NCBI GenBank assembly: GCA_031213475.1 | Contig: JARUPZ010000020.1 | Location: forward strand, 6,957,630 to 7,021,629 | Direction: 5' to 3' | Length of the DNA: 64,000 bases | From: Nereocystis luetkeana | Taxonomy: Eukaryota > Sar > Phaeophyceae > Laminariales > Laminariaceae | Shown here: in pieces, positions 1,458 through 61,000 of the stretch | Position numbering within the stretch: position 1 is the stretch's first letter | How the letters are laid out: each line of letters opens with the position of its first letter | Made by a program: the position numbers and the translations under genes | Notes under the pieces: model-generated | Databases searched by the model: none | Told to the model about the DNA's origin: nothing | What the model saw: the letters and a program-made list of their open reading frames with translations, nothing else

Positions 1458-2074
1458 TCAAATACACCCTTTCCCCGTACACACTATTATTATATTTCCA
1501 CTCTGCCCCTAAATCTAATGAACGCTGGTGTACTAAAAATTAATAAAAACGCTCCTTACACCCAGGGACAGAGTTGTCGTACGAAATGTTTCTCGAAAAA
1601 TCGGCGACGGCCAGTACAGCAGTGGTAATAGCTTGCTACATGCCGTCGTCGGCGTAGCTCTGGCCGCATGTTCTGTTGCTGTATGCTACCGGTATATGCT
1701 ACTAGGGGCGTACCGTGGACCCTCCAGTGCGATCACAATGTTGTTGTTACAGAATTTTTGACATTTTATTTTATTTCATTTGCTTTTTCCGACAACGTCA
1801 TTGATGTGCGCAGGCCCCGTTGTTTGTTCAGAATGAAAACGCTGACACAAATCGTCGAGTACCTACCACCGATCTCTATATATCCAGTCAATTAGCCTTC
1901 CCTGTGTACGAGTATACGCACTCAATTGTTACCACGAGTATGATTGTTATTTTCATAACATATGGTTGCTACTCGTACCGTACCTGGTATTAATTTTGTC
2001 CCCGAACGATGTATCGTACGTGTTCGAATCCAACTTGAATCGAATATCTTCCTACCTGGTGGTATACCGCAGTA
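1458..2074. other. No gene recognised
   Basis: I see no exon with coding character here. One TACCTGGTA word lies at 1981-1989. Confidence 0.5.
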
Positions 2075-2210
2075 GTACGGGGGACCGACCGTAGCAAATA
2101 TGACCAAATACTGGTAGTAAAAATGAACATAATATATACCAGTACCTGGTACCTGGTATACAGGTTTTTGTTTGTACCGTAGGTCCTATTTAATATGTCC
2201 CCCCGCAATA
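2075..2210. mobile_element. Degenerate MITE M1 with two TACCTGGTA inserts
   Basis: Both M1 ends are recognisable (TACGGGGGACC at the left, TCCCCCCGCAATA at the right). The interior is longer than in other copies because TACCTGGTA words sit at 2143-2151 and 2150-2158, within what should be a plain AATATATAGG stretch. Confidence 0.65.
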
Positions 2211-2829
2211 GTATAATGGTAGCAGTATGGTAACAGTAGTAATCCTTCTTCTATCACTCTGAAGCGACAGCTGTCCCGTTTTCCCTTCTCACGGGCTTAC
2301 ACTACATTCGGGATATACCCTATGATATATAGCACCCTATATACCCCATACAGGTCACAGGATTCTTCATCAGGATAAGTTATTTTCTTTTCGAACGTAT
2401 ATCGAAAAAAAAAAATGGCCGAAAAAAAAAGCCGAAAAAGTAAAAAGGCCCTCGAGTGAAATGAAAACTTGACCCGATGAGTAAGTACCACTCCGGGCGG
2501 AAATGTAAAGAGCGTTGGGGCATTAACATGAGGACCAAGTGTACCTTATTCTTCGGGCCAGAGGGGTAGGCCCAACCCTACCGTGCAGTGTCAAGATCAA
2601 GCACGCGGGACACTTTGTATCCCTGGACAGGTCTGCCTATTAAGTCGGTACCCGTTGGTACTCACGTGTGCTGTTTGCTTAGAGATGGAAGAAGAGCAGC
2701 TTTTATTCCTTTCGTGCGCGGGGGAGACTGGGACCAAGCTCGTGAGTCTCTGGAAAACCCCTGGTTTTTCCACCTAAGATACGCCTTCCAAGTACCTCAA
2801 ATATACGATCCCAGTGCCTGAACCCAGGT
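2211..2829. other. No gene recognised
   Basis: A 77-codon frame at 2588-2821 has no recognisable domain and no splice context. I regard it as chance. Confidence 0.4.
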
Positions 2830-3404
2830 AATCACCGGGCTTTCAAGCTCATTCAAGGCAGTATCACAACAGCAGTAGCCCACATCAGCCCGATAGGAAC
2901 GGGTCTCGACTCCGTCTATTCTTTTTTCCCTACCCTCAACTCCATCGACGCCGCGCGTGGTCTACAGCAGTAGCCCCCTATGTTGCAAGGGTCGCTCCTG
3001 TTGCTCAAGTACTAAGGATTACCCTGGGCTGGGCATAATCGTTCGAAGTTTTTACCCCCTATTATGGCTCGGTAGGCAGCACCTTCACACTTGACGTCGT
3101 TGGTAGGGCACGCGTGAGTTCGAATCTCACCTCGAACTTTATCTTTTATTGTAGAAATGCTTGCGCGTGTGCCCCTAACTTTTTTTTTAAATATCTCCCT
3201 GGTTCCCCAGGTAATGAACCGAGGCGGATAGGGCAGCAGCGACCGACCGTACACGGTACCGACGTCCCAAAGATCCCACCGTTCAGAGGGGAGAAGAGTG
3301 CCACAAGGATTGCCCAGGGCTGGGTATGAATCGATCGATATTTTACCCCTGTACTGTAGCTTAGTAGGTAACACCTTCATACCAACGACGTACGACACAT
3401 AAAC
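2830..3404 (+). repeat. Dispersed repeat R, right part, with tRNA-like boxes
   Basis: The segment aligns with 16655-16917 through landmarks such as 'tatctccctg(g)tttcccc', 'gttcaga', 'gccctgggctgggta' and 'taggtaacacctt'. At 3061-3138 it carries an A-box-like TGGCTCGGTAGG and a B-box-like GAGTTCGAATC at suitable spacing. This suggests a tRNA-derived internal pol III promoter. A second A-box-like word (AGCTTAGTAGG) lies near 3358. It is probably a SINE or SINE-like element. Confidence 0.55.
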
Positions 3405-3466
3405 CACTATCCACGCCTGGGCCGTACGACCACGGCCACGCATGAGTTCGAGTACCCTCCCCCTGT
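3405..3466 (-). repeat. Repeat P copy (C-tailed family), partial
   Basis: On the minus strand it reads G-rich start, ACTCATGCGTGGCCGTGGTC, matching the core of copies near 5370, 11465, 15175 and 36240. It abuts the LINE relic. Confidence 0.5.
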
Positions 3467-4964
3467 TTGCGAATGACTTCGTGGGGATATCAGAAACATT
3501 CGGAGGGTTGCAGAAACAAATAGAGGAGGCGCTAGAATACACTGGGAAAATGGAGGGTGACGGCGAACGTCAAGAAGTGCGCAGTAGTAGTAAGTAACGA
3601 AGATAAGGTGCATGGACCCGGTAAGCTTCAGTTGGAAGTGGGGAAAAGATGAATTGCCGATCGTAGACCAGAATACGCACCTTGCCGTATGATAGAGATA
3701 TCTAAAGACTGCTCTTGGGATGCGCACATAGCAAAAGTAATAGGAAAGGGTGAAACACACGTAGGCAAGATGGATGCGATCCTAACAGACTCGCATCTCG
3801 ACACTATTACGGGGGACTATTATAGTAAATAAGACCTATGGCACGCACAAAAACCTCTATATTTACTACCTATTTTTACTAACACTGTTTGGTCCTATTT
3901 ACTATGGTCCCCCGTAATAGGATCAAGAGATGTATCCCGTTAAGCGTGATCGTGCCAAAGCTAGAATATGCAGGATACTTCTGGGAAGGGAACGCGAAGT
4001 TCGTAAAACAGTTGGAAGCTGTACAGACGGCAGCAGCTAAAAAAACGCCAAGACGCTCAAGTAAGACTACAGAGTAGTATCAGAGTATTAAGAGCAGAAC
4101 TGGGGATGCGCCCACTCAACACAAATAGAGACAAGATAAAGTTGAAAGGGCAATATAAAGTAAATAACATGCCAAAGAAGAGGCTGCCATCCATAGTTGA
4201 TAGAGCTGTATGGGAGAAAATAACAGAGGGGCGAGCTAGAGTAAGTTGGGATAGCGTAGTCGAGAAAGTATGGAAGGTTATAGGAGGAAACCAAGAGGAG
4301 ATGATGTCCGCAGAGAAGTGTGGGAGGTAAAAGACAGAAGTAGAAGAAATGATAGAAAGAAGGGATACAGGCTAGCGCTTAGAACCAAGGTGAAATCGGA
4401 GGAACACTTAGAGATATACGGGGGATTACGCGAAGGGATAGGAATTAAGATGTATTTGCACGGCCCAGTGGACTTCGCGAAAACGCTGAAACTGCGATTT
4501 CGTGTAGGTGACCTGGACCTGCCCGAAAGAAGAAAGAGGTATACCATTAGCCGGGAGGAGGAAATAGATGAACAGATGTGCCCGTGTGGCAAAGCAACAG
4601 AGAGTAGAATTCACATAGTCTGTAGTAGGAGGATGTAAAAATTGTGCAAGGAGGAACGAGTTGTATCAGAAGAGTAGCTGAGAGAAATAGACGAATGTGA
4701 CATGGAGGAGGAGTTTGATACACTAAATAGCAGCGAGAAAACGGTCGCTATCCTAGGAGATAGATCGTGGCCACAGGCGGCGAAACAGGAAGGGGATAAG
4801 ATTAGCAAAACGTGTAATACATGGAAACAACGTAATGAGCGCCCAATTGTTGAAGGTGTCTCTATTAGGAGTAGGAACGGTGCTCCGTCTCGAACGGGAT
4901 GCTTGGTCAATGACCAAATGACTAACGCAAGCAACAAATGAGTACGCCCCCCCCCCCCCCCCCT
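3467..4964 (+). pseudogene. Non-LTR (LINE) retrotransposon, dead 3' part
   Basis: Frame fragments joined in order form the end of a LINE ORF2. They are an RT palm remnant LFANDF near 3467 (family motif [FY]xDD), then LEYAGYFWEGNAKFVKQLE near 3960, then VWEKITEGRARVSWDSVVEK (4200-4270). Next come YGGLREGIGIKMYLHGPVDF and LPERRKRYT, then a zinc-knuckle-like CPCGK...H...C near 4580-4620. The tail is the frame 4702-4941, ending MTNASNK. The first catalytic Asp is Asn, several frameshifts and stops interrupt it, and a MITE sits inside it, so it cannot be active. After its stop codon at 4939-4941 there are only five bases (GTACG) and then 18 C (4947-4964), apparently its own 3' tail. The 5' part is missing. 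Confidence 0.85.
3807..3917. mobile_element. MITE M1 inserted in the LINE
   Basis: A complete 111-bp M1 copy lies between TA dinucleotides 3805-3806 and 3918-3919. If the element and one TA are ignored, the flanking LINE frame reads straight through (Leu-Asp-Thr-Arg-Ile-Lys). This shows both the exact element ends and the 2-bp TA target duplication. Confidence 0.92.
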
Positions 4965-5237
4965 ACAATCTTCAAGCTTCCCAACAGCACTCGACTCGGC
5001 CTTTTTGTCTGCTCGTTCTCGAGCACAGGCTGCTCTCGCCACGTACACGACGCGATCGAACTGTCTTTGGGACTAGAGCGGCGTGCAGGCACAGCTTGTG
5101 GTGTGAAGCATCTCTTGAGTGAACGAAGGGGGCTGTGTCACCCCACACGTCCATTTTTAATTTTTATTTCCTCTATGGCGACGAAACTAGGATCCAGCGC
5201 TAACTCCCTTGTGCTTGGGTCTCTTCCGTTGGCCTCG
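4965..5237. other. No gene recognised
   Basis: I see nothing interpretable between the LINE poly(C) tail and the next repeat. Confidence 0.4.
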
Positions 5238-5400
5238 TTGACCCCTCCCCCCCCCCCCCTCCCTGGTGCAAGCAATGTCTGCCTGGTCGGCGGAAACCAG
5301 ACGTGTTCCGTCCCGGCATCGTAGGGAGGCGAGTGTCTGTGGTCGTAAGACTACGGGTATGCATGATAATGAGTGCACCCTACCCCCCTCCCCCTTTTAT
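5238..5400 (+). repeat. Repeat P copy
   Basis: The copy runs through GACGTGTTCCGTCCCGGCAT and GGTATGCATGATAATGAGTG to a C-rich end. The same body is found inverted at 15142-15285. The end AATGAGTGCACCC resembles the LINE end AATGAGTACGCCC. Confidence 0.6.
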
Positions 5401-5688
5401 ATGGGTATTGTGAGCTTGTCGTCGAAGTCCGCCGCGCCCATGATCTACCGCGTACACCAGGAGCAAATAGTCGACGGCGGTGAGGGGACGTGAAGTGGCA
5501 TCGATTTAATATCCGTGGTGCAACTGTTTCGGTGTTTGTTAGCCCTTGCGTGTGGACTACTTGTGCGTGGGTTTTTTTTCGCTTCGACTTTCATAGCACT
5601 TGAGTGCGTCGTTTTGACTACTTTTTTTGTTTGTGCTCTCCTGCGCGCCCCCCGTAAAACCTTTCGGACACCTCGGACAGATCATCGA

Positions 5689-5950
5689 CCGTATCACACC
5701 AGGGTGATAATATAACACACCCCCTCGGACGATTTTCAAAGCTGGGTTTCTCTCGGCGACGGGGAGGGCGTATCGAATACGACGAGCGATGCGTCTAGGC
5801 AACCTTCTCGACGATTTTGTTTTTCAACAAAGCCACAATTTTCGTTTGTGTGTGCCCCTCCCATGTTTTGGAGGAAACCGGGTCTGAAATTCATCCCCGA
5901 GGGGGGTCGGGGTGGGTGTGTTATCTTATCACCCAGTGTGATACGGTAGA
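5689..5950. mobile_element. MITE M3 copy
   Basis: A roughly 260-bp element has inverted ends: CCGTATCACACCAGGGTGAT at the left and the inverse ATCACCCAGTGTGATACGG at the right. Internal landmarks shared with other copies are CCCCCTCGGACGATTTT, GAGCGATGCGTCTA and TTTGGAGGAAACCGG. Confidence 0.8.
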
Positions 5951-6889
5951 CCTTTCAGGACAGACACAACTAGCTCATTTTGCCGAGTGAGAGCCGCAAA
6001 CAAGCTGCATTATCCAACTGTAGGAGAGGTTTCCTTCGCTGGATCTGGAAGCATACAGATATATCCTGCACAACAAGTCACAACGGCAGGCTAGCATCTA
6101 CAGTAGATGATCTAGATCGTGATCTATCTGTAGATCATCTATCTGTCCAACCTGTAAACCTTTCAGGCAAACCACCCAACACGCGTGCTACAATAGGGGG
6201 AGCACTTTTTTTTCTGACTGACGGGGGGCACCTGAACCCAAAATTGTCGGGATAATGCCATTCCTTTTTTTTGCGATGTTAGTATGTTTCGTATATTCAT
6301 TTTCCCTTGGGACACGGGTTTTTTCATCGGGGGTTGTACCTATCATGTTTTAAAAAAAAAGAAAAGTTTCTACTCACTATTAGTATAGAGCAAGAAGCCC
6401 AGAAAAAAATCGTGTGCACCTCGATCCTTAGCATGCGTCTACTTCGAATCAGATTGGGACACTATTTTTTGGGAAAGGGTCTACGTTTCCCGCACGCATC
6501 AACCTCAGTGCCGTACAGTATAATGCGCAAGATTAACATATCCCCACAGACGAATTTCGAGGACGAGTTTTATCCAAAACTTGAGGGGGGTCTTACTCGT
6601 GCACACAACGAAAAAACATGGTGGCTTTGGAATCTCTTGCTCAAATGCCCGGCGTCGTTCGTGGCACTTTTCCTCAAAATGTATATGTATTCGTCGAAAA
6701 ACTAAAAACATCTTCGAAATTCGCCCGAGAGGGTGTCTTTGTTGTCATCATGCTGACTATCAATTTTCCGTAGTAGACGCACCCCGAACGGCCGCCGGCG
6801 TTTGCACCTTCCGAATACTGCCGAGAGAAACAGCAGCTTCGATATTCGTTCGTGCCCGAGGGGGGGTGGTGCGTTCGTCATCACGCGTG
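5951..6889. other. No gene recognised
   Basis: There are several chance frames of 60-132 codons. None has a recognisable domain or splice context. Confidence 0.4.
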
Positions 6890-7185
6890 CTGCCGTATCA
6901 CACAGGGTGATAAAAGATAGAACACCCCCTCTCGGACGTTTTTTTCACGTTGATTTGCTTCTCAACAATGGGGAGCGCGCAAACAAAGAGAGGCCGAGCG
7001 ATGTTATTGTTGTCTATGGAAATTCAAATCTGGAGAGGAGATCTTTGCTTCTTCTTCTCAACGCCGACATTTTCGTTGTAGGTGTGTGCACCCTCTCCCC
7101 CCTAGTTTCGGAGGAAATCGTGCCGGAAAGATCATCCCAAGGGGGGGGGGTGTTATATTATCACCCTGTGTGTTCTGCGGTAACA
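6890..7185. mobile_element. MITE M3 copy
   Basis: The M3 ends (GCCGTATCACACAGGGTGAT; ATTATCACCCTGTGTGTTCT) and the internal GGAGGAAATCGTGCCGGAAA are present. It lies immediately downstream of the EF-hand gene. Confidence 0.75.
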
Positions 7186-7192
7186 TCGTCAT

Positions 7193-7294
7193 TCATTCAG
7201 ATGGACCCAAGCTTTGGAACAAAGCCTGCAACCACAGCTTTTTTATAGCGATGATTTCCAGGAAATAAACGCTGCCGCGCCGAGGGCGCCTCGG
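7193..7294 (-). CDS. Candidate terminal exon of the EF-hand gene
   Basis: The acceptor gctctcag|CCG opens a phase-0 frame of 33 codons (start PRRPRRGSVYFLEII, end LGPSE) followed by TGA. The phase fits the preceding exon, whose donor is a weak AAG|gttggt. The sequence does not resemble the usual calcineurin B or CHP C-terminus. The real last exon may lie elsewhere. Confidence 0.3.
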   Translation of the reverse strand, partial: PRRPRRGSVYFLEIIAIKKLWLQALFQSLGPSE

Positions 7295-10200
7295 CTGAGA
7301 GCACACTCGAGAGCGGGGTGGTGTGGATCAACAGGTTGGTGAGGGGCCTCTCTGCCGGAGCGGGAGGAGGCCTCGTCCAATCCAATACCCACACGAAATG
7401 ATCAGCGACAGAGGACGAAAAAGTGTGTGAAAAACAGCGCACGAATGCACCAGATGTATGCCTGATATCTGTGCGATTTTGGAGCCGAAACCCAGACGAA
7501 AACGAGACGCATCGATTCGAGTCAAGTCTATTCCAACGGAGAAACGAGAAATAATAAAAAAAAGAAGAGAAACCTATACCATAGTAATGTGACCACCAAC
7601 CACCGACCACCAACCTTGATGTAGTCCGCGAGGGAGAGCGACTTGCTCCCGGGCGTCGACACGCCTTCCTCGATCACCCGTGCAGCGACCGCATCCTGAG
7701 ATAAACGCGGCCGCCGAAACCAAGACGGCGGGGGAGGGGGGGGGGGGGGGGGGGGGGGGGGGCGTACTCATTGGTTGCTTGCCTTCGTCATTTGACCATT
7801 GACCACGTATCCCTTTCGAGACGGAGCACGGAGCGGGGGCGGGAGTGATAGGAAGTATAGGAGAGGGTGGTTAGCGTGTTATGTAGAACTACTATTGCAT
7901 CCAAACCCGACGGTTTTTATCGGGGGTATGTATCAGACACAGGTGCATGCTGCAATGGGGGATAGGGGATGCACGTACCGCACCGATACGTTCTGAGGTT
8001 GTGACACTCGCTTGAGGCGTTCTGTACATACCCCACTCTAAGTCCTGACCTCGAGAAAAAAAATGAATGAAAGTGCAGCCCGATCGACACAGGGGCTGCA
8101 CTTCTTGCCTTTTGAGACGATATTTTCTGACCGGTTGAGCTTCCTCTTAAGCGAGCAGCCACCGCCTAGTTTGACACTTTCACTACAGTGCTTCATTTCT
8201 CGTGAAGACTGCAGTTGCGCATAGAAATATCAACATTCGGTCGGGTCGCGCGAACACGCTATCTTCGGGGTCATGTTTCGGTGAGATATTGAGCTCTTCA
8301 TGCCAGGAGCTCAGAAAATACGGCACCCCCCCTATAAGGCACCACCCCTATAAGGCGCCACCCTTATAAGGCACCATCCGTATAAGGCACCACCCTTACA
8401 AGGCACCACCCCTACAAGGCACCATCCGTATAAGGCACCATCCGTATAAGGCACCACCCCTATAGGGCACCACCCCTATAAGGCACCACCCCTATGAGGC
8501 ACCATCCCTATAAGGCGCCACCCCTATAAGGTACAACCCCTATAAGGCCCTACCCCTACAAGGCACCACCCCTACCGTGGTGTTGCTCGACGAACAACGC
8601 CATGGCCTAGGTTATATACACATCGAACGAAAACAGGTGCCGGTGGAGATAACCAAGCGGGGAGGGGCTCGTGCACCACAAAACCACGAGCGTTTTGTGG
8701 GGATACGTAGCTTAGTAGCCGGAGGTAGCAGCATATGGTTGGGCAGTACCAGACAGGCCCGACTACTGCTGGGCAGGTTCACTGTCGTTACACTTCATCC
8801 CTCATGAGTGCTGGTATCAGAGTAGCGTTTTCTTGCCTCTCCAGATACTTCTGAGATAATAAATAATAACGCCTCCACAACAATGCAGGGGAGACAGGGA
8901 GACCATGGCGCGTTTCGCCGGAAGGAGAGTGCGTGTGTGAAACGGTTGCCGTGACCGCGACGGTTCTCACGGAATTCCCTCGAATATCTCTGCGCTGATT
9001 GAGGCTGTGAGCTGACGGGCTCTAAGGCTACATATTTCCTCAAAGTCGGTTTTGGTTGACGTGCTATGCCTCATAAAAATTAGGTGCTGCCCCTCTAAGG
9101 CAAGGACGCGTCTTACGAGTAGGGTCGTGGGTTGGTTGACTATAAGTCGCCGATGACGACGATGATGATAGTGATGACGATGATGAGGATGGTTATGAGG
9201 ACAATGATAAAAATGATGATGACGATGGCGACGATGATGATAGTGAAGATGATGATGATGATGAAGATGATGATGATGATGATGATAATGATGATGACGA
9301 TGATGATGACGACGTCCTCCACATTATGACCTCTTTTCCCTGAAATCTAGCCCCCGTGAGGCCCTAAACAGTCGGAACGAAAACACCTCGACGGAAGAAA
9401 ACAAAACAAGTACAAATTGTTGTGTGTACCGCTGTACCAGTACGCAAAGGAACGCGGTACTAACGAGCTGCATTATACCATCCCTTATCACTTGTAAACC
9501 AAATGATACCAGGAACATATCCACGGCAAAATACGTGCACCCGAAATATGTCACCGAGTACAGTCAGTTGCGTGCCCGGCAGTACGCGGAGCGCTGCGTT
9601 TTTTCCAGCGACTGGCGCGTTTTTGGCGAGAGTCATATGTGCTACCACTACGAGCGAACGTGGTGATCAGAACCAAGTATTGTATGGAAACATAAGGGGG
9701 ATGCCTGCTTTTTTTTTGTTCGTCCGCCGTGGGTTCTGATTGCTGTGCCCCCCCCCCCCGTGACAGCGAAGACTTGAGGTCAGTTAGTTGGCTTGATTAG
9801 CCACCCCACTACCTTGTACCGTATCATAAAACTTAAGATCACTCACTCCTCCCCGGACGAATTTCCAAGTTGTTTATCTCGGCAAGGGGGATAAGTCCAA
9901 ACGCCGAGAGCGATGCGTCTATGGCAGCATCTCAACAAGATATTTTCCATAAACAACTATTTTTTTTCGTGCGCACCCCCCCTCCCTCCCCCCTGGGTTG
10001 GGGAGACTCGTGTCTCTGAGATTCATCCCAGGGGGTTGTGATACCTTATCACTTGGTGTGATATACGGTAATAACTACCATCCTGACCGATACTATAACC
10101 TCCGTTTGATTTTCGCAATAGAGTCCAAGCGTGGGTTATATCCCGGGCCAGACCGGTACCCGTGAAATCCAGCCGAGGCGTGTCTTATTCACAGCCATAG

Positions 10201-13200
10201 TGTCGGAAGCCTTCCGGAACAACCTCCTGTGCAGCTCGTGGACACACAAACGCACACGAGCAGGCAAAAACCTGTGGCACTAGCTTGACCCGTGCGGGTA
10301 TACATTAAGCTCTGCGAAAGAAACCCTTGGAACTAAGTTTTCTCCATGCATGCTACCACAGGGGCCGCATCACATTTTTGCCTCATGAGGCAATAGTACT
10401 GACTGTTAATACACTCCTCAACTGAGGTTCTACCCGGTATATATACCATCTGTGTTGGCATAGTGCTTATCGCTAGCATCTACCAGGCCATGACATTTTT
10501 GTCAACGGGTCAAGACACACAATTTTTTATCAAGCGTCAGTCTTGGGTGAGGTATGGAGCCCTCCCCAAGTGAGGACACTCAGAAAATTTAGGTGCTGCC
10601 CCTACAAGGCAAGCACGTGTAGTTCGATGGCGAAAACGGCGCGCGTACACACACGCAGGTAGCAACCCCATCTCACCAAATCAAGCTTTACACCCTCCGG
10701 CGCGGCTGTGATGAGCTCGAGGTACCGTATCAGATCATTCTTGGATACCTGTCCGTCTCCGTCGATGTCAACAAGCGTGAACGCCACTGTGGAAGGGGGG
10801 GGGGGGGGGGAGCGACGAGGAGGCGGACACGGTGAAGATAAGGCCGGGTAGGCTTGAGGTGGCCACAAAGCTCGGCTGCAGCATTTGATGAGCGAATCAG
10901 TCGCGGTGTTGTCTACTGAGTTTCTGAGTGCTTCCATCAACTTCTAAGAAAGCAGTGGTCCGTCGATACCAACAAGCGTGAACGCCACTCTAGAAAACAG
11001 AACCGGGGAGGTGAAGAGGAAATTTGAGGCCGGGGGAGACTTGAGGTGGTCGCGAAGCTTGGCTACGGCTTAACCCTTTCAGAACTCCAGTCCCGTTTTG
11101 GGGACACACCAGTCAAATTCCAAGTAGTTTGTCCGAAATTGTCTCCAAAACGAGACTGCAGTCCTAAAAGGGTTAACCCCTGACCGTACGCATGAGCGTT
11201 GATTGATACCACCCACCCGAGTGTGACAGTAAACACACCCTTTCCCCGGCCACCCCCCGTACGCGCAAAACCAGACTTTCGACGCTCGACACTCACTTCG
11301 TAATTTCTGGTCCCTCTGAGCACCATGGTTGTTGAAGCTGTGGACGTGGAGAGGGGAGGAACGGACGCGCACGAGAATCCTTGGCGAATGCTAGACTTTT
11401 TTTAGAAACTAGTGGAGCGGTCGGGGGGGGGGCGGTGTACTCGATAGGAGAGATGCACTCGATCTCATGCGTGGCCGTTGCCGTATGGCCATATGGAGTG
11501 GGGGGGGGGGGGGGGGGGGAGAGGGACTTGGTATTCTTTGCGGGAGCGTCACAACTGGCGCGGGACGACAGACGCGTAGCGGACAGAGTAGAAGTGACGC
11601 TCCGCGCTTCCAAGTCAGGCAACAAGAGGTTGAGGGCTGATGTGATGAACTCTATTTGTCTCACGCACTAGTGAGGGGGGGAGACGGGGTGTAAAATATC
11701 ACGCGCGGAAGGACAAACGCCAGAGGTCGATCATATGCCGTGGTCATGATCAAAATTACGGGTAATTACGTCGCTGACATGCTGGCCGCGTGTTTTTCTC
11801 CACGGGGGGGGGTTGTTCTCTTGCGCTTCCCCACAGAGCAGTTTCCCAGTCGTTTCTTCTCTGCGGGCACGCAACGCAAACAAACAGCGTGTGATTAACC
11901 CTTCTTGATGGTCGCTCGTAAAGACGGCGGAGGCAAGCCACCAACAGCCATCAGGCCGGTAGGCTCCTGACCCGACAAGCACGAGCTACTGCCGTAGAAA
12001 CACAAAAAAAATATCAGGAAGATGTCTGCTCTGAGAGATCTATCTACGTAGATCATGGCATAGGAATCCATGATGACCCCCGTCCGAGAACAGAAGCGAC
12101 GAGCAACGCATCGACCTCGCTAAAAACGCTCGGGCTGATGGGACAGAGGCCACGGCATGTGTCCGAGCAGCGACAGAAAGAGATACACGTACGACACGCG
12201 CGCAACTTCAGAACGGGATACAGCAAAGAGAAGGTGCACCATATTTTTTTTGAGGCTCTTCGCTTTTGAGGAAGGAACTCTATGCCACCACTAAGTCACC
12301 CAAAAACCCTGATTTTTTTTCGATTGTTGAAAAAAGAAGAAGAAGAGGAGAGTGCAATGGTTGATGAACAATCCCATGGCCCACTGTGGGTTGAAAAAAA
12401 TACTAATAATATCGCAAAAAAAAAGGCCTTCGGACGATTTCGGGTCGAGGAACCCCCGTCATTTTCAGGAAATATTTTACAGCCAAAATGTTTATCCCCT
12501 GTCGCAGCACGCGTCAGGGGTGTACCCATTTTTAAGACCACTCGATCCAAGGCCCTGCCAGAGATAAGACCAGGGTATACCGGCTTGCCACGACATAATT
12601 TTGAAGAACCCCCCCCCCGTGGAATTTGGATGGGATACTTGTTTCTGTAGGAATAGATAAAATACCTTTCAGAAGTAAGGCCACGTTTTTTGGGCTCGTC
12701 ACGGGGTGGTCTTAACCCCTTTAGAACCGCAGTCCCGTTTTGGGGGACAAACTACTTGAAATTTGACTGGTTTGTCCCCAAAACGGGACTGCGGTTCTAA
12801 AAGGGGTTAACCTTTTCTGGTACTGCAGCCCCGTTTTGGGGGCAACGTGCGTAGAATTTGAGTGGGTTGTCCCCAAAACGGGACTGCACCGCCGCTTGTG
12901 CATGTGTTTTTGTACTTACGCCGTCCCTGTTGACCCGCTCTCAAGACTGCGCTCCCCTTCGTGGGGACACACTGCTTGGAATTAGAGTGAGATATGTGTT
13001 TGTGTACAGTGCGCTATATTGCTATAATACAACAGAGTGAAAGGGTTCACAGAGACGGGTGACAAAAGACCGCGAATGCCGATTGTGTAGGTCACACTAT
13101 ACCTCAACCAAATCTAAAGGAACGACGGGGTCGACCTTTTCGTGGGCGCGCCCCACTACGGCGAAGATGGCTCTGGCCAGCCCGCCAATCAGCGTCCGAC

Positions 13201-19359: not shown

Positions 19360-19390
19360 TCAATGCCATCGGAGGAGCCCTCATGCATAT

Positions 19391-21614: not shown

Positions 21615-21654
21615 TAGTTTTTTTCTCTCCAAAAACCACCATTTTCGCTCTCTG

Positions 21655-30600: not shown

Positions 30601-30602
30601 GC

Positions 30603-47474: not shown

Positions 47475-49100
47475 GTGAGTGGTCGTGGGAGGATTTATCT
47501 TGACGAAATAAGAACATTGCCACTTGCTTTGAACCTACTACCTATAATATTCAGTATACGTTTCAACCCGTCTCGAAATCTGCGCACCTACATGGTATTT
47601 CGCTATCCTCGCAGCAAGAAGAACCGCTAGAAATGTGAAGCTTGAGAGTCTTAGACAGAAAGCATGGAAAGTGTAACCCTATAGCCCGATCGATCCACGC
47701 AACCTCGAGATCACTCTTTTCATTTTTGAAGTATGAATAGCTCGGCACCAAAAGCGCACTTCTCTTGCCTTCAAGTATAGCGATAGCTGAATCACATTTT
47801 TTTTTTTACCCTCGGCGGCAAACCGGTGGAGGGGATTTTCAGGTTGTGGAAAGAAATGGTCGCTCCGCCTCTTCAATTGCCGCCACCCCCCGTAGATTTG
47901 TCCAAGAACTCTCGTGCCAACCATAGAACAATTGGATGCAGATACTCTTAAGGGTTGTACTGCCCAGTTATCTGGTGGCGTTACAACCCGCGAAGGGAAG
48001 GGCTGTGTAGATGTGGGAGACACATTTCATGGGTGTGTGACCCACTATAGGTCCCCCGGTTGCGCACCTTTTTATTGCGGCCGTACTAGGGCTGATACAC
48101 GGGTACATGCAGAGAATATATACGGTACTGTACGTCTCCTTGTACTGTAGCATGCTTAAAAAAAATAAATTACAGCCCTCGGAACATTTCCACGGTGCGG
48201 CAACACCCTCATCTATCGACGCATGGATCAAGAGTATTAACCTACCTTAACCTACGGACATGTGTCGGTGTTTTTTTTTTCGGCATACATCTGCTGTGAT
48301 GATGTAGTGTCTGCGCCTCTGCGGTGTTCGTACGCGGGTACGTGCGCATCCGTTCTTGCCTGCCTCCTAAGGCTGCCTCGAATCACCTACCAGGTACCTG
48401 TTTAATTTTACGGGTCGTTTTATTTTTGAATGGATTTCCCCGGTGTAGAAACCTCGACGCTTGTACCTGCTGCGCCCTTACAGCCGAGGCTTCCGAAAAC
48501 GATAGAGTAGTAGTATTAATTGTGTAATTTTTGTAGCTTGCCTCTACGACATCTGGCCACACCAATTTGCCAGGGTCCCACTTCGCCAGGTCGGACCACT
48601 GCTGTAGTCTTTTTTATTTGTTATTTATTTATTTTTTTTATCCTCCGGCGGATTGGTAAAAATAAGGCTGGAGTCAACTCAGAGAGTCAACTCTATAATC
48701 TGCAGCGGTCTGCCCCTTTTTTGCGCGATGACCTGTTGTTATCGGAGCTTCACACCTAGCTTTATCAACATGTACTGAAGTATCCGTCGCAAACATTCTG
48801 CAAATACTCGTATTAACAGTACATCTGCACACACTCGTAGTACCTTGTGGTATGTGTGTTTCTGCCTTCAATTGCAGTGCACCCTGGGTTTTGCGCCAGC
48901 GCTAGTCAAGGTGTTTAACACGTGTACATTCCTCGGTTGGGGACATCAAATGCTCTGGTCGCAACAAACTTTAAACAATTTAGGCGCCCAACGCGGGTCC
49001 TGATTACACCACATTTGCTGCTGACAAAACAACCGATTTGAGCAGGATCGAACCTCTGTACTTTCAGTATGACCCGACGTCTAATACAACTACTGTAGTG
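47475..49100. other. Probable intron; no exon recognised
   Basis: TACCAGGTA lies at 48388. At 49020-49090 the minus strand has AGGTTCGATCCTGCTC, a B-box/T-arm-like sequence without a full cloverleaf. Confidence 0.4.
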
Positions 49101-50972: not shown

Positions 50973-53900
50973 GATCCAACGGATGTGCCCTTACCTACAG
51001 CAGAGCCAACATCTGTCTCTACCCAACCCCCGAGTCCTGAACCCACAGTAGAAGCGACACGGGCACCTTTAGTCGAAACTGCCCAACCCTCCGTAGAACC
51101 CACAGCGGAGCCAACTCCTGAGCCGACGACAGGCCTTACGCCTCAGCCCTCATCAGCGCTAACTCCCGAGCCTTCAGTAGAGCCTACTGCTGAGCCAACA
51201 GCAGAGCCCACCGCGGACCCAATAGTAGAGCCCACTGCGGGGCCCATTACGAGGCTGACTTTCGCGCCGGAGAACCCAACACCTCAACCTACTTCAGAGG
51301 TCACTGTCGAACCGACTGCAGAGTCTACAGTAGAACCCACCTCCGAACCCACGGTAGAGCCCTCTGCCCCTCCTACGCCAGAGCCAACCGCTGAGACAAC
51401 GTTAGCACCGACGCCTGACTCCACGGTAGTACTTACGCCCGAGCCCACAGCAGAGTCCACCGTTGAACCCACGTTAGAACCCACGTCCGAAACTACGCCT
51501 GCGCCGTTAGCAGGACCTACGCCCGCACCCAGTGTAGAACCTAGTGTCGAACCTTCATCTGAGCCGACCGTTGAGCCCACCTCAGAACCGACGCCCGATG
51601 GGACCGTAGCTCCCACGCCAGAGCCAACATCCGAGCCTACCGCTGAGCCCTCGGCGGGGCCTTCACTTGAACCCACGGTAGAACCTACGCTTGAACCCAC
51701 CGTAGAACCGACTGCCGAACCCTCAGTGGAGCCGACCGTTGAGCCCACCACCGTGTCGACGCCCGAGCCTTCGGGGACAACCACACCAGAGCCTACAGTG
51801 GAGCCATCTGCTGAACCCACAGCAGACCCCACTTCGGAAACCACGGCGCAGCCAGCTGTTGAACCGACGATGACGCCCACGGTAGAACCCTTAGAGGAGC
51901 GAACACCTGGACCGATTTCGATCCTCACGACAGAGCCTTCGCCTGGATCTACGGTAGGACCATCGGCTGAGCCCACTCCGGAGCCCACCCTTGGCCCCAC
52001 GACAGAGCCCACGCCCGAGCCTTCCGTAGAACCGAGCGCTGAACCTACGGTGGAACCTTCTGCTGAGCCCACAGTAGCGCCCACAGCTGAGCAAACGGTA
52101 GAACCGTCTGTTGAGCCCACAGAGCAACCGACGCCTGGACCCACGGTAGAACCTAGCAGCGAACCAACAGTAGAGCCCACCGATGAACCTACTGCGGAAC
52201 CTTCCGCAGTTCCCACAGCAGAGCCGACACCTGAAGTCACAGCAGCGCCTGCAGCAGAACCCACGTCAGAGCCGACGGTTGTACCAACGGTAGAGCCAAC
52301 TCCTGACTCTACGTCACCTCCTACGGCCGAACCCACACCTGAGCCTACCGTTGAACCCACGGCAGAGCCGACGGTTGAACCCACCGCCGACCCTACTGCG
52401 GAGCCTTCTGCTGAACCCACGATCGGACCAACAGCAGAGCCGACGGTTGAACCAACGGCAGATTCAACACCGGGGCCTACGATACCTCCTATGGCCGAGC
52501 CTACACCTGAGCCTACCGTTGAACCCACGGCAGAGCCCACGCCTGAGCCGACGGTTGAACCCACCGCCGATTCAACGCCGGGGCCTACGGTAGCGCCTGC
52601 GGCCGAGCCCACACCTGAGCCTACCGTTGAACCCACAGCAGAGCCGACGCCTGGGCCAACGGTTGAACCCACCGCCGACCCTACTGCGGAGCCCTCTGCT
52701 GAACCCACGGCCGAACCAACAGCAGAGCCGACGGTTGAACCAACGGCAGATTCAACGCCGGGGCCTACGGTACCACCTACGGCCGAACCAACACCTGAGC
52801 CTACCGTCGAACCCACGGCAGAGCTGACCCCTGCACCTGCGGTGCAGCCTTCTGTGGAACCCACGGTGCAGCCTACTGCCGAACCCACACCTGAGCCTAC
52901 CGTTGAACCCACGGCAGAGCCGACGTCTGAGCCGACGGTAGAACCTACCGCCGACCCTACTGCGGAGCCTTCTGTTGAACCTACCGAACCAACGGCGGAG
53001 CCAACACCGGAGCCTACGGTACAACCTACTGCCGAACCCACGGTAGAGCCAACGCCCGAGCAACCTACCACCGGCCCTACTGTGGAACCTTCTGCTGAAC
53101 CCACCGCCGAAGTAACGGCAGAGCCGACGGTTGGACCAACGGCAGAGCCAACGCTGGAGCCTACGGTACCACCTACTGCCGAACCCACACCTGAGCCTAC
53201 CGTTGAACCCACGGCTGGGCTTACGCCCGAGCCGACCCTAGAACCTACCGCGGACCCTACAGCGGAGCCTGAACCAACGGCAGAGCCAACGCCCGAGCGT
53301 ACGGTACCCCCTACTGCCGAGCCCACCCCTGAGCCTACTGTTGATCCCACGGCAGAGCCAACGCCTGGGCTGACGGTAGAACCCACCGCCAACCCTACTG
53401 TAGAGCCCTCTGCTGAACCCACTGTCGAACCAACGACGGAGCCCACGGTACCACCTACTCTCGAACCCACATCTGATCCTACCGTTGAACCCACAGCAGA
53501 GCCCACGCCTGAGCCGACGCTAGAACCTACCGCCGAGCCTACTATGGAGCCTTCTACTGAACCCACCGTCGAACCAATGGCAGAGCCGACTGTTGAACCA
53601 ACGGCAGAGCCAACGCCCGAGCCTACGATACTCCCTACTGCCGAGCCCACCACTGAGCCTACCATTGAACCCACGACAGAGCCGACGGTTGAACCAACGG
53701 CAGAGTCAACGGTTGAACCATCGGTAGCACCTACCGTCGAGCCCACACCTGAACCTACCGTTGAACCCACGGTAGAGGCAACGCCTGAGCCGACGGTAGA
53801 ACCCACCGCCGACCCCACGGCGGAGCCTTCTGCTGAACCCACGGCAGAACCGACGGTTGAACCAACGGTTGAACCAACGGCAGAGCCAACGCCCGAGCCT

Positions 53901-56900
53901 ACGGTACCACCTACTGCCGAGCCCACCCCTGAGCCTACTGTTGATCCCACGGCAGAGCCAACGCCTGAGCCGACGGTTGAACCCACCGCCGACCCTACTG
54001 TTGAGCCCTCTGCTGAACCTACCGCGGAACCAACGGTAGAGCCAACGTCCGAGCCTACGGCACTACCTACTGTCGAACCCACTACCGCCGATCCTACTGC
54101 GGAGCCTTCTGCTATACCCAGCGTCGAACCAACGGCAGAGCCGACTGTTGAACCAACGGCAGAGCCAACGTCCGAGCCTACGGTACCACCTACTGCCGAG
54201 CCCACAACTGAGCCTACCATTGAACCCACAACAGAGCCGACGGTCGAACCTACGGCAGAGCCAACGGGTGAACCAACGGTAGCACCTACCGCCGAGCCCA
54301 CACCTGAGCCTACCGTTGAACCCACCGCAGAGCCAACGCCTGAGCCGACGGTAGAACCCACCGCCGACCCCACGGCGGAGCCTTCTGCTGAACCCACCGT
54401 CGAACCAACCGCAGAGCCAACGCCGGAGCCCACGGTGCCACCTACTGCCGAGCCCACACCTGAGCCTACCGTTGAACCCACGGCCGAACCAACGGCAGAG
54501 TCGACTGTTGAACCAACGGCAGAGCCAACGGTTGAACCAACAGCAGAGCTAACGGTTGAACCAACAGCAGAGCTAACGGTTGAACCAACGACAGAGCCAA
54601 CGCTCGAGCCTACGGTACCACCTATTCCAGAGCCTACCGTTAATCCCACAACAGAACCGACGCCCGAACCTACGGGAGAGCTAACCCCTGCGCCTGCGGT
54701 GCAGCCTTCGGTTGAACCAACGGTGCAGCCTACTGCCGAACCCACACCTGAGCCTACCATTGAACCCACGGCAGAGCCGACGCCCGAGCCGACGGTGGAA
54801 CCCACCGCCGACCCTACTGCTGAGCCTTCTGCTGAACCTACCGCCGAACCAACGGCAGAGCCGACGGTTGAACCAACGCTTGAACTAACGACAGAGCCAA
54901 CGCTCGAGCCTACGGTACCGCCTACTCCAGATCCCACCGTTGAAGCCACGGCAGAGCCGACGTCCGAGCCAACGGTAGAACCTACCGCTGATCCTACTGC
55001 GGAGCCGTCTGCTGAACCCACCGCCGAACCAACGGTAGAGCCGACGGTTGAATCAACGACAGAACCAACGCCCGAGCCTACGGTACCACCTACTCCAGAT
55101 TCCACCGTTGATCCCACGGCAGAGCCGACGCCCGAACCGACGGGACAGCTGACCCCTGCGCCTGCGGTGCAGCCTTCTGTTGAACCTACGGGGCAGCCTG
55201 CTGACGAGCCCACACCTGAGCCTACCGTTGAACCCACGACGGAGCCGACGCCCGAACCAACTGTAGAACCCACCGCCAACCCTCCCGCGGAGCCTTCTCC
55301 TGAGCCCAGCGCCGATCAAACGGCAGAGCCGACGGTTGAACCAACTGCAGAGCCAACACCCGAGCCGACGGTACCACCTACTCCCGAGCCTCCTGTTGAT
55401 CCGACGGCAGAACCGACGCCCGAACCCACAGAAGAACCCACGCCTGCGCCTACTTTGGAACCTTCTCCTGAACCTACGGTAGAACCCACTGGAGAGCCGA
55501 CAGTTGCAGCCACGGCAGCGCCTGCGGCCGTACCCACAGCTGAGCCCACTGTCGATTCCACTACAGAGCCCACTCCTGAGTTTATATCCGAGGCACCTGT
55601 TACTCCCACGGCAGCACCTGCAGATGAACCGACAGCAGGGCCTACCGTCGAACCCACTGCCGAGCCGACAGTCGAACCCACCGCCGAACCCACTCCAGAG
55701 TCCACCGTTGAACGCACTTCAGAGCCGACACCAGAGCCTACGGCAGAACCTATCGCCCCACCTACCGCGAATCCTTCTGCTGAACCCACGGCAAACCCCA
55801 CTGCCGAGCCAACTCCAGAGCCAACCGTTGTGTCCACATTAGAACCGACTTCTGAACCCACTACCGCGTCGACAACAGGGCCCGACGTTGAACCCACGGC
55901 TGAACCTACGCTCGAAGCTACCGCCGAACCCACACCAGAGCCGACACTTGCAGCCACGGCCGCACCCGCACCCACGGCAACGCCTGCAACTGCACCCACA
56001 GCAGAGCCCACGGTTGAACCCACGGCAGAGCCCACGGTTGAACCCACGGCAGAGCTCACTGCCGAGCCAACATCCGAGGAACCTGTTGCATCCACGGCAG
56101 AGCCTAGTGCCGAGCTATCATCCGAGGAACCTGTTGCTCCCACGGCAGAGCCGACACCTGCAGCCACGGCGGCACCTGCACTCGAACCCTCGGCAGAGCC
56201 TGCTCTTGACCCCACATCAGAGCCATCTCCTGAACCCACGGTGAGACTTACTGACAAACCAACAGCACAGCCCCCGATTGAACCCACGACAGAACCCACG
56301 ATCGAGCCTGCTGTCGAAACCACAGCTGAGCCTACTGCCGAGCCCTTAGTTGAACCCACGGCAGAGCCCACATTCGTGTCAGCATCGGAGCCACCTGTAT
56401 CGGAGCCACCTGTTGTACCCACAGCAGAGCCAACATTTGTATCCACAGCAGCACCTGCAGGCGCACCCATACCAGGCCCTACCGTTTTAGTCACGGCGGA
56501 GCCGACTCCTCTTACCAATTTAGAACCGCCCACCGCCGACCCTACCGTTGAGGCTACTGCTACTCCTGCACTAGACCGGAACCTCGAACCGACTGCTGAA
56601 GCGACAGTAGAACCCAGCTCTAAACCTCCAGCGGAGCCATCTTTCGAGCCGACGGCTGAGCCAACACCAGAGCCGTCCGTTGAGCCCATATTGGCAGCGA
56701 CGCCGTCCCCCACGGTGGAAGCCACTGCCGAGTCCACACGTGCGCCAATTCTCGAACCCGCGTCTGAGCAAACCCCCGAGCCCACACAAGGGCGGACGAT
56801 CGAGCCTACCGCCGAACCAGCTGCTGATCTCACGGCAGAGCCGACGCTTGAGCTCATATCCAAACCTAGCGCTGAACCCTCGACAGAGCCTACAGTTAAC

Positions 56901-57839
56901 CCTGTGCCGAAGCAGACCCTCCAACCTGTCACTGAACCGACACTCGCGCCTGCGATAGGGCCTGCAGACTCTACCACATCACCTACGCCAGATGCAACAC
57001 CTGAAGCCACCTCGCTAACTGTAGCGCCCGTCACTTCTTCGACACTTGACATGACCCCTATCCCTTCGCCTCTTCCTACTTCTGACGTATCACCTGCACC
57101 TTCGCAGGAACCAACCGCTCCGCCTACCCCAGACCCAACTGCTGAACCTACCGTGGAGCCTACGGCAGAACCAACCGCTGAACCCACTGCAGAGCCAACT
57201 CCTGAACCCACTGCAGAGCCAACTCCCGAACCCACTGCAGAGCCAACCCCCGAACCCACTGCAGAGCCAACCCCCGAACCCACTGCAGAGCCAACCCCCG
57301 AACCCACTGCAGAGCCAACCCCGGAACCCACTGCAGAGCCAACCCCCGATCCCTCTGCAGAGCCAACCCCGGAACCCACTGCAGAGCCAACCCCCGAACC
57401 CACTGCAGAGCCAACGCCCGAACCCTCTGCAGAACCAACCCCCGAACCCACCGCAGAGGCAACCCTCGAACCTTCTGCAGAACCGAGCGCCGAACCAACT
57501 GCAGAGCCAACCCTCGAACCCTCTGCAGAGCCGAGCGCCGAACCAACTACAGAGCCGAGCCCCGAACCAACTGCAGAGCCGAGCGCTGAAGCCACTGCAG
57601 AGCCGAGTGCTGAACCAACTGCCGAGCCGACTGCTGAACCAATCGCGGAGCCGACTGCCGAACCCACTGCAGAGCCCTCTGCCGTTCCCACCCCAGAACC
57701 GACCCCTGAGCCGACGGAAGTCTCGACCCCTACCCCTGAACCCACAGCAGACCCCACACTCCAACCTACAACAGAGCCCCCAGTTGCCCTCCCGACCCCT
57801 GAACCTGTGGTGGAGTCCACCTCTTCCCCGTTGACGGAG
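50973..57839 (+). CDS. Giant Pro/Thr/Glu-repeat exon (2289 codons)
   Basis: The acceptor caatcgtcgcag and donor ACGGAG|gtgtgt enclose 6867 bp in phase 0. The exon starts DPTDVPLPTAEPTSVST and ends SPLTE. Almost all of it is EPT-type repeats (EPTVEPT, AEPTPEPT, with DPT, PPT and SPT variants). At 57186-57430 the units are nearly identical 24-mers, each with CTGCAG. Residues are mainly Pro, Thr, Glu, Ala and Val, without Cys or membrane segments. This fits a rigid, mucin-like linker in a wall or surface protein, but no functional domain is visible. The opposite strand is also open for long stretches, but only the plus strand has matching splice sites and sister exons of equal phase. Confidence 0.8.
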
Positions 57840-58690
57840 GTGTGTACGTACGATCGTGGTGGCGTATTTTAATTTGCTTCGGGAATTAAGGTGTTGCATA
57901 TCGTGAAGGCTTTGTAGGATGAGATCTTGTCTCGACCTGGTTGGGCGAGATTAATGCCTGGCATGCAGGTGCTAATAGCAATATGAGGTCGCGCTCCTCT
58001 GTCCGTGTCAGTGACGAGGATTCCCAGAAGACCACGTGCCTTTTGTACACCAGGCGTTGTTCACAGAAGCTGATGCCATGTTTTGTTTTTATTTTCCCCA
58101 TTTTTTCCTCGGCTTCGTGTTGTCTCTCGCGCGGCGCAAGAAGTGTGCGAAAACCACGCTTCACATGCCATTTCGAGCACCACACGCGACGCAACATACC
58201 CAACACGTTTGCCATGCGGAACCTTGAATCTCATCTAACGGACCGTGCGGCATATATGGTCCCCTACCCTCTACAAATACGCCCTTGTCGTGCTTCCGAC
58301 ACGCTTGCTTGTATAGCAAATTACAAGGTGTGTTGAGGTCTAATTCCAATCCCAAGTATTTCGTGCCGCAACCTGCTGGTGCAGCTTCATTTTTGAAGGG
58401 GTTAATATTTTTGCATTCGACCATCGCCTTTCACGCTTGTACCTTTCACACTTGTACCCTCAAGGCGTCGACCAAAGTCACGAGACCCAAGCTGACAATA
58501 TCTGGAGATGTAAGGACCTTTTTGGGTTGTCATATTTCCCCCCAAACGGTCCTTACTTACACTGACAGTGGTTATATACCAGGTATTGAACACGAGCAGT
58601 CCTTTCTCTCTTGCAGCTGTTCGGCTCTTGCCTTCTCGCGTGCTGATGTATTCCCTTTTTTTTTTGTTCCCCATCCCTTGCGTCTGACAG
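57840..58690. other. Intron of the P/T gene
   Basis: Bounded by gtgtgt and a pyrimidine-rich acceptor (gcgtctgacag). TACCAGGTA lies at 58577. Confidence 0.6.
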
Positions 58691-59119
58691 GCGACGGATC
58701 CGCCTGCGCCGACACCGGCACCCATGGAGGCACCGACGAACCAGCCTGTGCTGGAAACAACTCCGGCACCGGTAGACCTACCGACGGACCCGCCGCCAGT
58801 ACCAAGTGCTCCACCGGTGCCATCGCCGACGGAAGCGCCTGACGTACCGACCGACCCGCCGACTGCGGAACCGACGGATCAGCCTGTGGTGGACCCAACT
58901 CCGGCACCGATGGACGAACCGACGGACCCGCCGGTACCGACAGACCCACCGTCGAGCCAGCCTGTGGTGGAACCAACTCCGGCACCGGTGGAGCAATCGA
59001 CGGACCCGCCGGAGGCACCAAGTGGGCCACCAGTGGAAGCACCGACGATCCCGCCGGCAGCACCAAGTGAGCCACCAGTGGAAGCACCGACGACACCACC
59101 TGCGGCACCTACAGCGGAG
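58691..59119 (+). CDS. Pro/Thr-rich exon (143 codons)
   Basis: A strong acceptor (T-rich tract, then gcgtctgacag) and donor GCGGAG|gtacgt enclose 429 bp, phase 0. The exon starts ATDPPAPTPAPMEAPTNQPV. Repeats of the type DQPVVDPTPAPMDEPTDPP differ from those of the giant exon, so the gene has several repeat styles. Confidence 0.78.
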
Positions 59120-61000
59120 GTACGTGCGCGAAGCGACAAGTTTGATAAGTGTAACTGCTGTAACCACCGTATCGGGGTTGGTGTGGTGACAATATGGTTG
59201 ACAGATTTCGGGGCTTTTTCTGTGATTGTCAGGCGACACCTTTTACTGTGTATCAAGTATTTCGTCCAACCTCGTCTTTGCATGCTGCCTACGAGAGGCA
59301 GGTGGATCGTAAATACTGTAGATTGATCACCGGATTTTTCTTGACCGCCTTTGACCATGGTTCTCTCTGAATCGCAGTCGTGATGTTCGTGTTTTTGTTT
59401 CAATCGGAATGTCCCAGTCGCTTTTGGATGCTTGGAACTTTTTATGTACCAGGAACTATTGCTTTGTACCAGGTACCACTTCTTTTTGTCAATTGTGTTG
59501 TGTTGGCGTGTTGTATTCTCTGAACTGTGAAAACTTGCGAGTCGGTGTTAAGTGTAGATAAAAATAACCGTTCTGGAATACATATACCAGGCACAATGTT
59601 GTATTTTGACGTTTCGACGGTCAACAAGAACGTCAACCGCAAAAATTGTCATATATACTCGTTTGATCTTGTTTCATAATTTAGTTGTTTTATCGTACCA
59701 TCTTAGTATGCTTTTCATGTACCAGGGTATGTAAATAATTAACGACCACGTCTGGTTTTAGAAGGCCTGCGAAGGTATTTTGAAATCCGTATCATGCATA
59801 TACGTATAGCAGCATACAAAAATAAATCGACGAATTAGTGTTCCGACTAGTTTTTTCACCTGCACAGCAGTGTTGCTGTAGTAGTCGCAGTAACTTCTGA
59901 AATTAGCAGATATACAGGCGTACCTGATATTTTTAGATTTTATACATCCTTGGTACTACGTACCTGGTATTAAACAATAGGTCCCCCTTCGGGGTGTGGT
60001 TGATGTGAAATGCTGGGGGTGTCGCAAGCTGAATACCGGGAACAGCATCGCGAGGCGTTCCTCGTACCTACCTGGTACTACTGTATGTCATGACGGGACG
60101 AGATTCGACAGTGTGTACGTATTAATACAGTATTACGGGGGACGATAGTTAACAGGACCTATGGTACACGTAAAAACCTATATGTTTAACCATTTTTACT
60201 AACAATATTTGGTCCTGTTAACTATGGCCCCCCGTAATAGTAGCTTTTTAGATAATGACATGAGAATGAGGTCACGATTGCATCTTCTAGTGATCATTGC
60301 ACACACAAAAGAGCGCCGTGGCTGCCATTAAGGGCAGAGCTTCAAGCACGGGTGCTGTTGTCCGTACTGCTGTTGTATCGCTGCCGTTATCTACTGCTGT
60401 AGTTTATAACGTGGCTGTGCGGTTGCTTTCGAGGTTCCGAACAAGTGTGAGTGCATGTCGTCCTGTCCCCCCTCTTCGTAGCGTCCAAAAAATTAGCCCG
60501 CTCTTGAGATTGTGTTGTGGTTCGTATTTCGTGACCGGAAGAGTAAAAGCAATATCGACATGCTCCGATTTACTGTACGTACCTCGTACGAGTGTGGTAC
60601 GAATGTGGTGACACGAGGAGAAATGACTGAAAAGATTGGAGGCCTATCAGCAGAGAGCAGTGAATTGAAGCTGTCAAGGTATATCTGTCCCAGATAAAAT
60701 ATGCGGGTGCTCGCACCAGGCATACGTTTACTTGTTGTGGCAATTGCTGTAAATACAAAAATCAAAGTTGTCGAGCACGTACGTTTTTTTCTTCATACCA
60801 GCGTATTGAGCTTGTATGATGAGGGCCGAGCAAGGAGTGGTGATAGGTTCAAATTGCAACGTCAGTACGCATGATACGTTCAGGTTTTATGTTTTCCGAC
60901 TCATTCTCTTTCCTGGGAATGTTCGATACGTTCTGTTTTATAGTTTTCTAATCGTTCCTATAATTTCCTTGCTTCGCAATCTCATCCACACCGCATCCAG
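59120..61000. other. Intron of the P/T gene
   Basis: Contains TACCAGGTA/TACCTGGTA at 59467, 59961 and 60069, TATTAATA at 60120, and a complete M1 at 60133-60237. Confidence 0.6.
60133..60237. mobile_element. MITE M1 copy, intronic
   Basis: The tips TTACGGGGG and CCCCCGTAA are complete, with TA at 60131-60132 and 60238-60239. Confidence 0.9.

Follow-up and report, generated by a model that had tools for sequence, protein, structure and literature searches.

We describe here the word TACCWGGTA (W, A or T), which recurs in a stretch of 64,000 nucleotides from the kelp Nereocystis luetkeana (GenBank assembly GCA_031213475.1, contig JARUPZ010000020.1, forward-strand positions 6,957,630 to 7,021,629; C20:6957630-7021629 in our contig numbering). 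The whole stretch is called the window, and its positions are numbered from its first letter. We conclude that the word is very probably to be read as TA-CCWGG-TA, the excision footprint, or scar, of a cut-and-paste transposon that targeted TA and carried 5'-CCAGG ends.

The window contains 45 exact copies of TACCWGGTA; a preliminary description of this DNA had listed all of them at the correct coordinates and had overlooked none. It had put the random expectation at about 0.5, and Markov models of order 1, 2 and 3 gave 0.53, 0.94 and 0.76 copies, respectively. TACCWGGTA is the third commonest 9-mer of the window, behind poly-A and poly-C, and its other one-base variants occur 0 to 5 times each. 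The near variants of which the description had counted about eight are present as five copies of TACCCTGGTA and three of TACCAGGGTA. In the whole 465-Mb assembly (465,085,209 bp in 1,987 contigs) we counted 182,395 copies, compared with 1,744 for a control in which the same pattern was read backwards, so the genome-wide frequency, which the description had proposed to check, is far from normal. There were 91 copies in the 200 kb surrounding the window and 17 in 50 kb drawn from five further contigs, each of the five stretches being positive. The excess is genome-wide and not local to the window.

Repeats in which some copies carry the word and others do not revealed how it arrives. MITE-A (miniature inverted-repeat transposable element A) is short and palindromic, has TTACGGGGGACC as its ends, lies between TAs and is present 14 times in the window (at 21508-21625 and at 13 further places). 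When 15 stretches were aligned, the MITE-A copy at 37327 read GTGGTATA[CCTGGTA]CATGAAAACC, and the copy at 36626 read GTGGTATACATAAAAACC. The scar at 37361-37369 is thus a clean 7-bp insertion, with empty counterparts at 21508, 36491-36630 and 60124, and its joined flanks match an empty copy without a gap at about 90% over 96-97 bp. The scar at 23571-23579 is also a 7-bp insertion in a MITE-A copy, whose joined flanks match the empty counterpart at 1340-1457 gap-free, and the scar at 31217-31225 lies inside a further MITE-A copy as part of an 11-bp insertion made up of the scar and four more bases. Among 71 MITE-A copies from about 330 kb, 14 of the 18 seven-base insertions were exactly TACCWGG at a consensus TA, and these 14 occupied seven different consensus places; three more of the 18 resemble decayed or variant scars. 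The 264-kb subset, with 62 copies, gave 11 of 15 exact 7-bp insertions as TACCWGG at a consensus TA. As an alignment control we used a second repeat, MITE-B, 76 copies of which (about 330 kb) had three 7-bp insertions, none of them a scar, demonstrating that the 7-bp peak is not an alignment artefact. MITE-B has ends TTAACCCTTTTAG and inner sequence CAGTCCCGTTTTGGGGACA, and 16 copies lie in the window (12706-12888 and 15 other places). Neither repeat can be the parent of the scars, since the ends TTACGGGGGACC and TTAACCCTTTTAG cannot leave CCWGG.

We also searched with the joined flanks of each scar for an empty counterpart. A gap-free counterpart was found for 26 of 159 scars, compared with 53 of 1,000 control TA-N5-TA sites drawn from 1,290 (Fisher p 4.6e-6). 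Matches judged by sequence to lie outside MITE-A include the scar at 39199-39207, which has gap-free empty copies of its repeat (the best 96% over 67 bp), and those at L040:3173 and at neighbourhood positions -26110 and 121872. Within repeats, the word adds 7 bp at a TA and duplicates that TA, as a footprint of the Tc1/mariner/pogo type requires.

Could the word instead belong to a dispersed repeat and have spread along with it? Eight of the 45 window copies lie in or at MITE-A, one further copy (33251-33259) lies in a SINE-like (short interspersed element) repeat, and five of the 14 exact MITE-A insertions share one place. However, most copies of TACCWGGTA are outside MITE-A, those inside occupy seven different places in different copies, and the flanks of the 45 copies differ, agreeing in no more than weak base preferences out to about 8 bp. 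We consider spread with a repeat scarcely credible, and a longer common repeat was rejected on the differing flanks. The preliminary description was right in taking the word as real and far above chance, and in placing it outside any longer conventional repeat. Its statement that copies share nothing beyond the word holds for extended homology, of which the flanks showed none, but must be amended for a weak symmetric preference of the target site. The SINE-like repeat (window 23751-24100, 30251-30763 and 39430-39770) starts with poly-T and, as read, has a tRNA-like stretch; ARAGORN found no tRNA in it.

We infer a transposon as the maker of the scars, and with it the length of the overhangs and the class of the transposase. 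An element of the Tc1/mariner/pogo type would insert at TA and duplicate it. On exit, the cut would lie a few bases within the ends of the element, and the overhangs CCAGG and CCTGG would pair save for a central A:A, whose repair to A or T would account for W and leave TA-CCWGG-TA behind. Five-base joins of CCAGG...CCTGG remnants would all be CCWGG. Trimmed joins would yield CCAG, CTGG or CCGG at four bases and CCAGGG, CCCTGG or CCATGG at six. Ends of the opposite kind, CCTGG...CCAGG, would instead yield CAGG/CCTG, CCCAGG/CCTGGG and CCTAGG (CCGG would arise from these, too). Genome-wide, CCAGG ends would predict that TACCATGGTA is enriched and that TACCTGGGTA is near background.

We counted these words in 314 kb. 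Between two TAs, CCAG/CTGG occurred 32 times (9.9 expected), CCGG 21 times (5.6), CCAGGG/CCCTGG 15 times (1.0) and CCATGG four times (0.31). The words specific to CCTGG ends were near chance (CAGG/CCTG, 16 vs 13.3; CCCAGG/CCTGGG, 3 vs 1.0; CCTAGG, 0 vs 0.23). Genome-wide, TACCAGGGTA occurred 11,422 times on both strands, compared with 409 times for its reverse. For the four- and six-base variants, the residual bases are those of joined, trimmed CCAGG ends and not of CCTGG ends.

The target site also has a preference. In 155 scars, the bases on both sides of the empty site showed a symmetric preference for T at -7 and for A at -6 and -3, with T nearly absent at -1 (chi-square 89, 130, 63 and 64 at -7, -6, -3 and -1, 3 degrees of freedom). 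A symmetric, AT-rich target is what a Tc1/mariner/pogo-type footprint requires. In addition, one-mismatch copies of the word were rich in transitions, of which 79 were observed and 23.8 expected (62 and 41.5 for transversions), suggesting that old scars decay without constraint, as in neutral decay.

These results bear on a different explanation, that selection keeps or spreads the word, as a palindromic site for protein binding or as a highly iterated palindrome like HIP1. The exact palindrome with its central W, its huge over-representation and the symmetric flank preferences are all what such a site would show. Nevertheless, repeat copies show the word arriving as a 7-bp insertion at TA, the length variants that joined ends would yield are in excess, the one-mismatch copies are transition-rich, and a single decayed MITE-A copy (about 38730-38855) holds four scars, one of them a variant. 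On the 7-bp steps, the variant spectrum and the decay we rejected a functional palindrome, which we regard as highly improbable. The preliminary description had called the word a previously unnamed signal; in the sense of a functional signal this is not supported, as the evidence speaks for an inserted scar (TA duplication plus five bases) and not to a motif maintained by selection. CCWGG methylation was rejected as well, because the flanking TA is required: 155 of 213 ACCWGGT in the 314 kb were TACCWGGTA, and 42 of the remaining 58 were one outer base away from it.

Some scars adjoin one another. Ten chains of scars with a common TA were found in 264 kb. Copies 2143 and 2150 (2143-2158) share one TA and lie in the MITE-A copy at 2069-2213. 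Chains such as TACCTGGTACCTGGTA would arise by re-insertion at the TA of an older scar. The scar at 22104-22112 has a TA in common with TACCGGTA at 22098, and the scar at 40610-40618 with a variant, TACCCTGGTA, at 40617-40626. Pairs one base apart also occur, at 20174-20192 in the window (copies 20174 and 20184) and, for example, at C1:2753190-2753208. It is possible, though we do not favor it, that TACCTGGTACCTGGTA and similar chains are slippage duplications of existing scars and not repeated insertions, a question that concerns chains and not single scars. Some chains combine A and T forms, which plain duplication would not give. In favor of slippage, the sole scar-adjacent insertion or deletion (indel) between two kelp sequences is a perfect tandem duplication.

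The second of these kelp sequences came from bacterial records. A search of bacterial genome contigs for MITE-A gave matches in g3_MAG_00014 and g3_MAG_00016 (L010 and L011; JALZWC010000131.1 and JALZWD010000061.1), contigs of metagenome-assembled genomes (MAGs) that serve as species representatives. Both contigs start with kelp-like DNA (shown for L011) and continue with sequence that reads as bacterial, and are chimeric or contaminated. The names g3_MAG are those of a microbiome study of N. luetkeana, an excerpt of which gives 39.0-49.8% kelp DNA in whole-tissue assemblies (PMC9238374), and going by these names, the two MAGs probably stem from that study. In the two whole MAGs, TACCWGGTA occurred 60 and 5 times (control, 34 and 8); there is little or no excess because the MAGs are mainly bacterial. 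The first 3.7 kb of L011 align with C4:10947985-10951679 at 3,649 identical bases of 3,680. One of the six indels between L011 and the window's genome is an extra CTGGTA beside a scar in the latter (TACCTGGTA vs TACCTGGTACTGGTA); either a fresh four-base scar at the adjacent TA or a tandem duplication could account for it. In viral contigs, no MITE-A was found, a search with a LINE-like (long interspersed element) open reading frame gave no match, and nine stretches with scar chains of two or three copies each were taken as chance; phage records gave no match to MITE-A.

A number of results weigh against an excised transposon, the first being that the element itself was not seen. No element with TA-CCWGG and CCWGG-TA ends was found in 264 kb, 330 kb or about 350 kb, the latter two including 16 kb from two partly bacterial records. 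TACCAGG and CCTGGTA lie 4-34 bases apart at 5,159 places genome-wide (control, 315). In the first 50 places, which were those listed and all lay on one contig, 41 were canonical scar pairs and the other nine had no common longer end; five of the 50 were TACCAGGTAGTACCTGGTA, a pair of scars one base apart, which is commoner than we would have expected. The genome gave no match to the mariner transposase (PF01359), for which the control genomes were silent too, and none to the Tc1-type DDE_3 domain (PF13358), for which three control genomes were positive. The pogo-type DDE_1 domain (PF03184) had 28 matches (e.g., C35:5112140-5112694), and no CCAGG inverted ends were present at the five of these 28 loci examined, 4.1 kb each. 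One of them, L044, has TACCAGG and CCTGGTA 23 bases apart, distant from the gene, and in at least two, L041 and L042, the genes appear to contain introns. Several DDE_1 proteins have open frames of 300-425 codons. Five of the matches, on C2, C809, C872, C1099 and C1378, have equal scores.

The joins and sites themselves add further difficulties. Joins of two, three, seven and eight bases specific to CCAGG ends were weak or absent (in the 314 kb: CCA, 56 vs 41.4; CC, 98 vs 126.6; CCAGGGG, 1 vs 0.34; CCACTGG, 0). Many unpredicted words between two TAs were also enriched. Some of them come from MITE-A (GTTAA, GGACC) or from simple repeats; TA-CAG-TA (104 vs 43.6 expected) is without explanation, and insertions of the latter type were absent from the lists for 62 and 71 MITE-A copies. 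TA-CGTACG-TA, at 19 vs 0.38 expected, is likewise without explanation. Of the 26 empty-site matches, some are poor because they are simple repeats or have another scar as partner, and the five exact MITE-A insertions at one place could partly be inherited within a MITE subfamily. All three scars that could be compared between L011 and the window's genome were common to both, and in this comparison no canonical scar was seen to be polymorphic. Lastly, five residual bases are long beside the 2-4 bp of Tc1/mariner footprints, and the target preference differs from the plain ATATATAT, both as given in an excerpt of PMC7913693.

The missing parent is what would be expected if the word were added directly, that is, if an abortive transposition or a nuclease or polymerase event opened TA and added CCWGG, and there never was a long element: 182,395 scars stand against no parent in the DNA sampled (about 350 kb and the 50 listed of the 5,159 places). 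The variant spectrum nonetheless follows two trimmed inverted ends, and no process is known to us by which TA is opened and CCWGG added directly, which makes this origin very unlikely. We return to a transposon as the maker. With no parent in about 350 kb and no transposase linked to the scars, it follows that the source is rare or extinct, or has yet to be recognised. With one scar per move, an element that cuts and pastes could leave many scars with few copies.

We compared the scar with known systems. Sleeping Beauty leaves TA-CWG-TA, with the central mismatch resolved to W. The kelp scar is like this and other Tc1/mariner footprints in the TA on both sides, the terminal transposon bases between them and the symmetric preference at the TA target, but it keeps five bases, has about 182,000 copies and lacks a parent in the DNA sampled. 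The end of the mariner Mos1 begins with CCAGG, and Mos1 would give CCA/TGG ends; unlike for Mos1, no mariner transposase matched in the kelp genome, a search whose control was silent. HIP1, the highly iterated palindrome of cyanobacteria, is similarly short and extremely frequent all over a genome, whereas the kelp word comes in by insertion and duplicates its target. The Tc1/mariner transposon ZB has a preference for a palindromic AT repeat and leaves footprints of 0-3 bp (2-4 bp for Tc1/mariner), according to an excerpt of PMC7913693. For Stowaway MITEs of grasses, an excerpt of PMC1925063 reports empty sites that keep 2-4 bp beside one TA and 1-2 bp beside the other. The kelp scars share with these the TA target and re-insertion next to an old footprint, and differ from the excerpted study, which dealt with one intron, in having one dominant footprint genome-wide. 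Literature searches returned no paper on TACCWGGTA and nothing relevant among the TACCAGGTA matches listed. 'Transposon footprints' with Ectocarpus gave none, no such scars in a brown alga were among the matches listed, and PMC3271037 has no occurrence of 'footprint'. Scars of this kind are known; their number here and a source out of sight seem to be new.

The other scars of the window were located by exact match. They lie at 1981-1989, 16205-16213, 19730-19738, 20656-20664, 21286-21294, 22305-22313, 23121-23129, 23293-23301, 24479-24487, 25695-25703, 28628-28636 (followed by CTGGTA), 29107-29115, 29882-29890, 30975-30983, 31429-31437, 31634-31642, 31648-31656, 34180-34188, 35373-35381, 38310-38318, 39921-39929, 41112-41120, 44109-44117, 44510-44518, 45634-45642, 46962-46970, 48388-48396, 58577-58585, 59467-59475, 59961-59969 and 60069-60077. 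The four-scar MITE-A copy holds those at 38762-38770, 38795-38803 and 38809-38817, together with the six-base variant at 38749-38758. Besides the variant chained to 40610, six-base variants were matched at 21110-21119 (TACCCTGGTA), 23524-23533, 33792-33801 (TACCAGGGTA), 34878-34887, 36631-36640 (adjoining a MITE-A end) and 59720-59729. A seven-base variant, CCAGGGG on the minus strand, is inserted at a TA of a MITE-A copy at 24253-24263.

Two stretches of the window, 2159-16204 and 48397-58576, are free of scars. Given the density of scars in the whole genome, the probabilities of gaps like these are about 0.004 and 0.018, respectively; the gaps were picked after the fact, and as such hint at avoidance of genes without being a test of it. 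The second gap contains an open frame of 2,375 codons (50745-57872, plus strand) built of degenerate 12/24/36-bp repeats that read as Pro-Thr-x-Glu-like units. A further long repeat frame of 656 codons lies at 61903-63873 on the minus strand, with 30/60-bp units, Pro/Thr-rich as read. The open frame at 10605-10943 (minus strand), perhaps an exon, has a sub-threshold EF-hand match (E 0.0003). Rfam and ARAGORN gave no matches in the window.

If the word is a scar, some 182,000 identical scars would allow the excision history of one element to be read across the genome, including its choice of targets, the outcomes of repair and re-insertion by old scars. Excision footprints are usually studied by a single locus or a single assay. 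A canonical scar adds 7 bp; it would put a coding sequence out of frame and could serve as a presence/absence marker. For motif finders there is a warning, in that a palindromic 'motif', even a very strong one, can be a scar. Since scars far outnumber any visible parent, we must ask how a cut-and-paste element moves so often without filling the genome. One answer, which we consider unlikely, is a hyper-mobile or developmentally excised element that left one uniform scar per about 2.5 kb and is itself very low-copy or gone; at its boldest, this reading would have excisions in the tens of thousands programmed, now or in the past. If this were true, the kelp genome would have been shaped by excision scars and not by resident elements.

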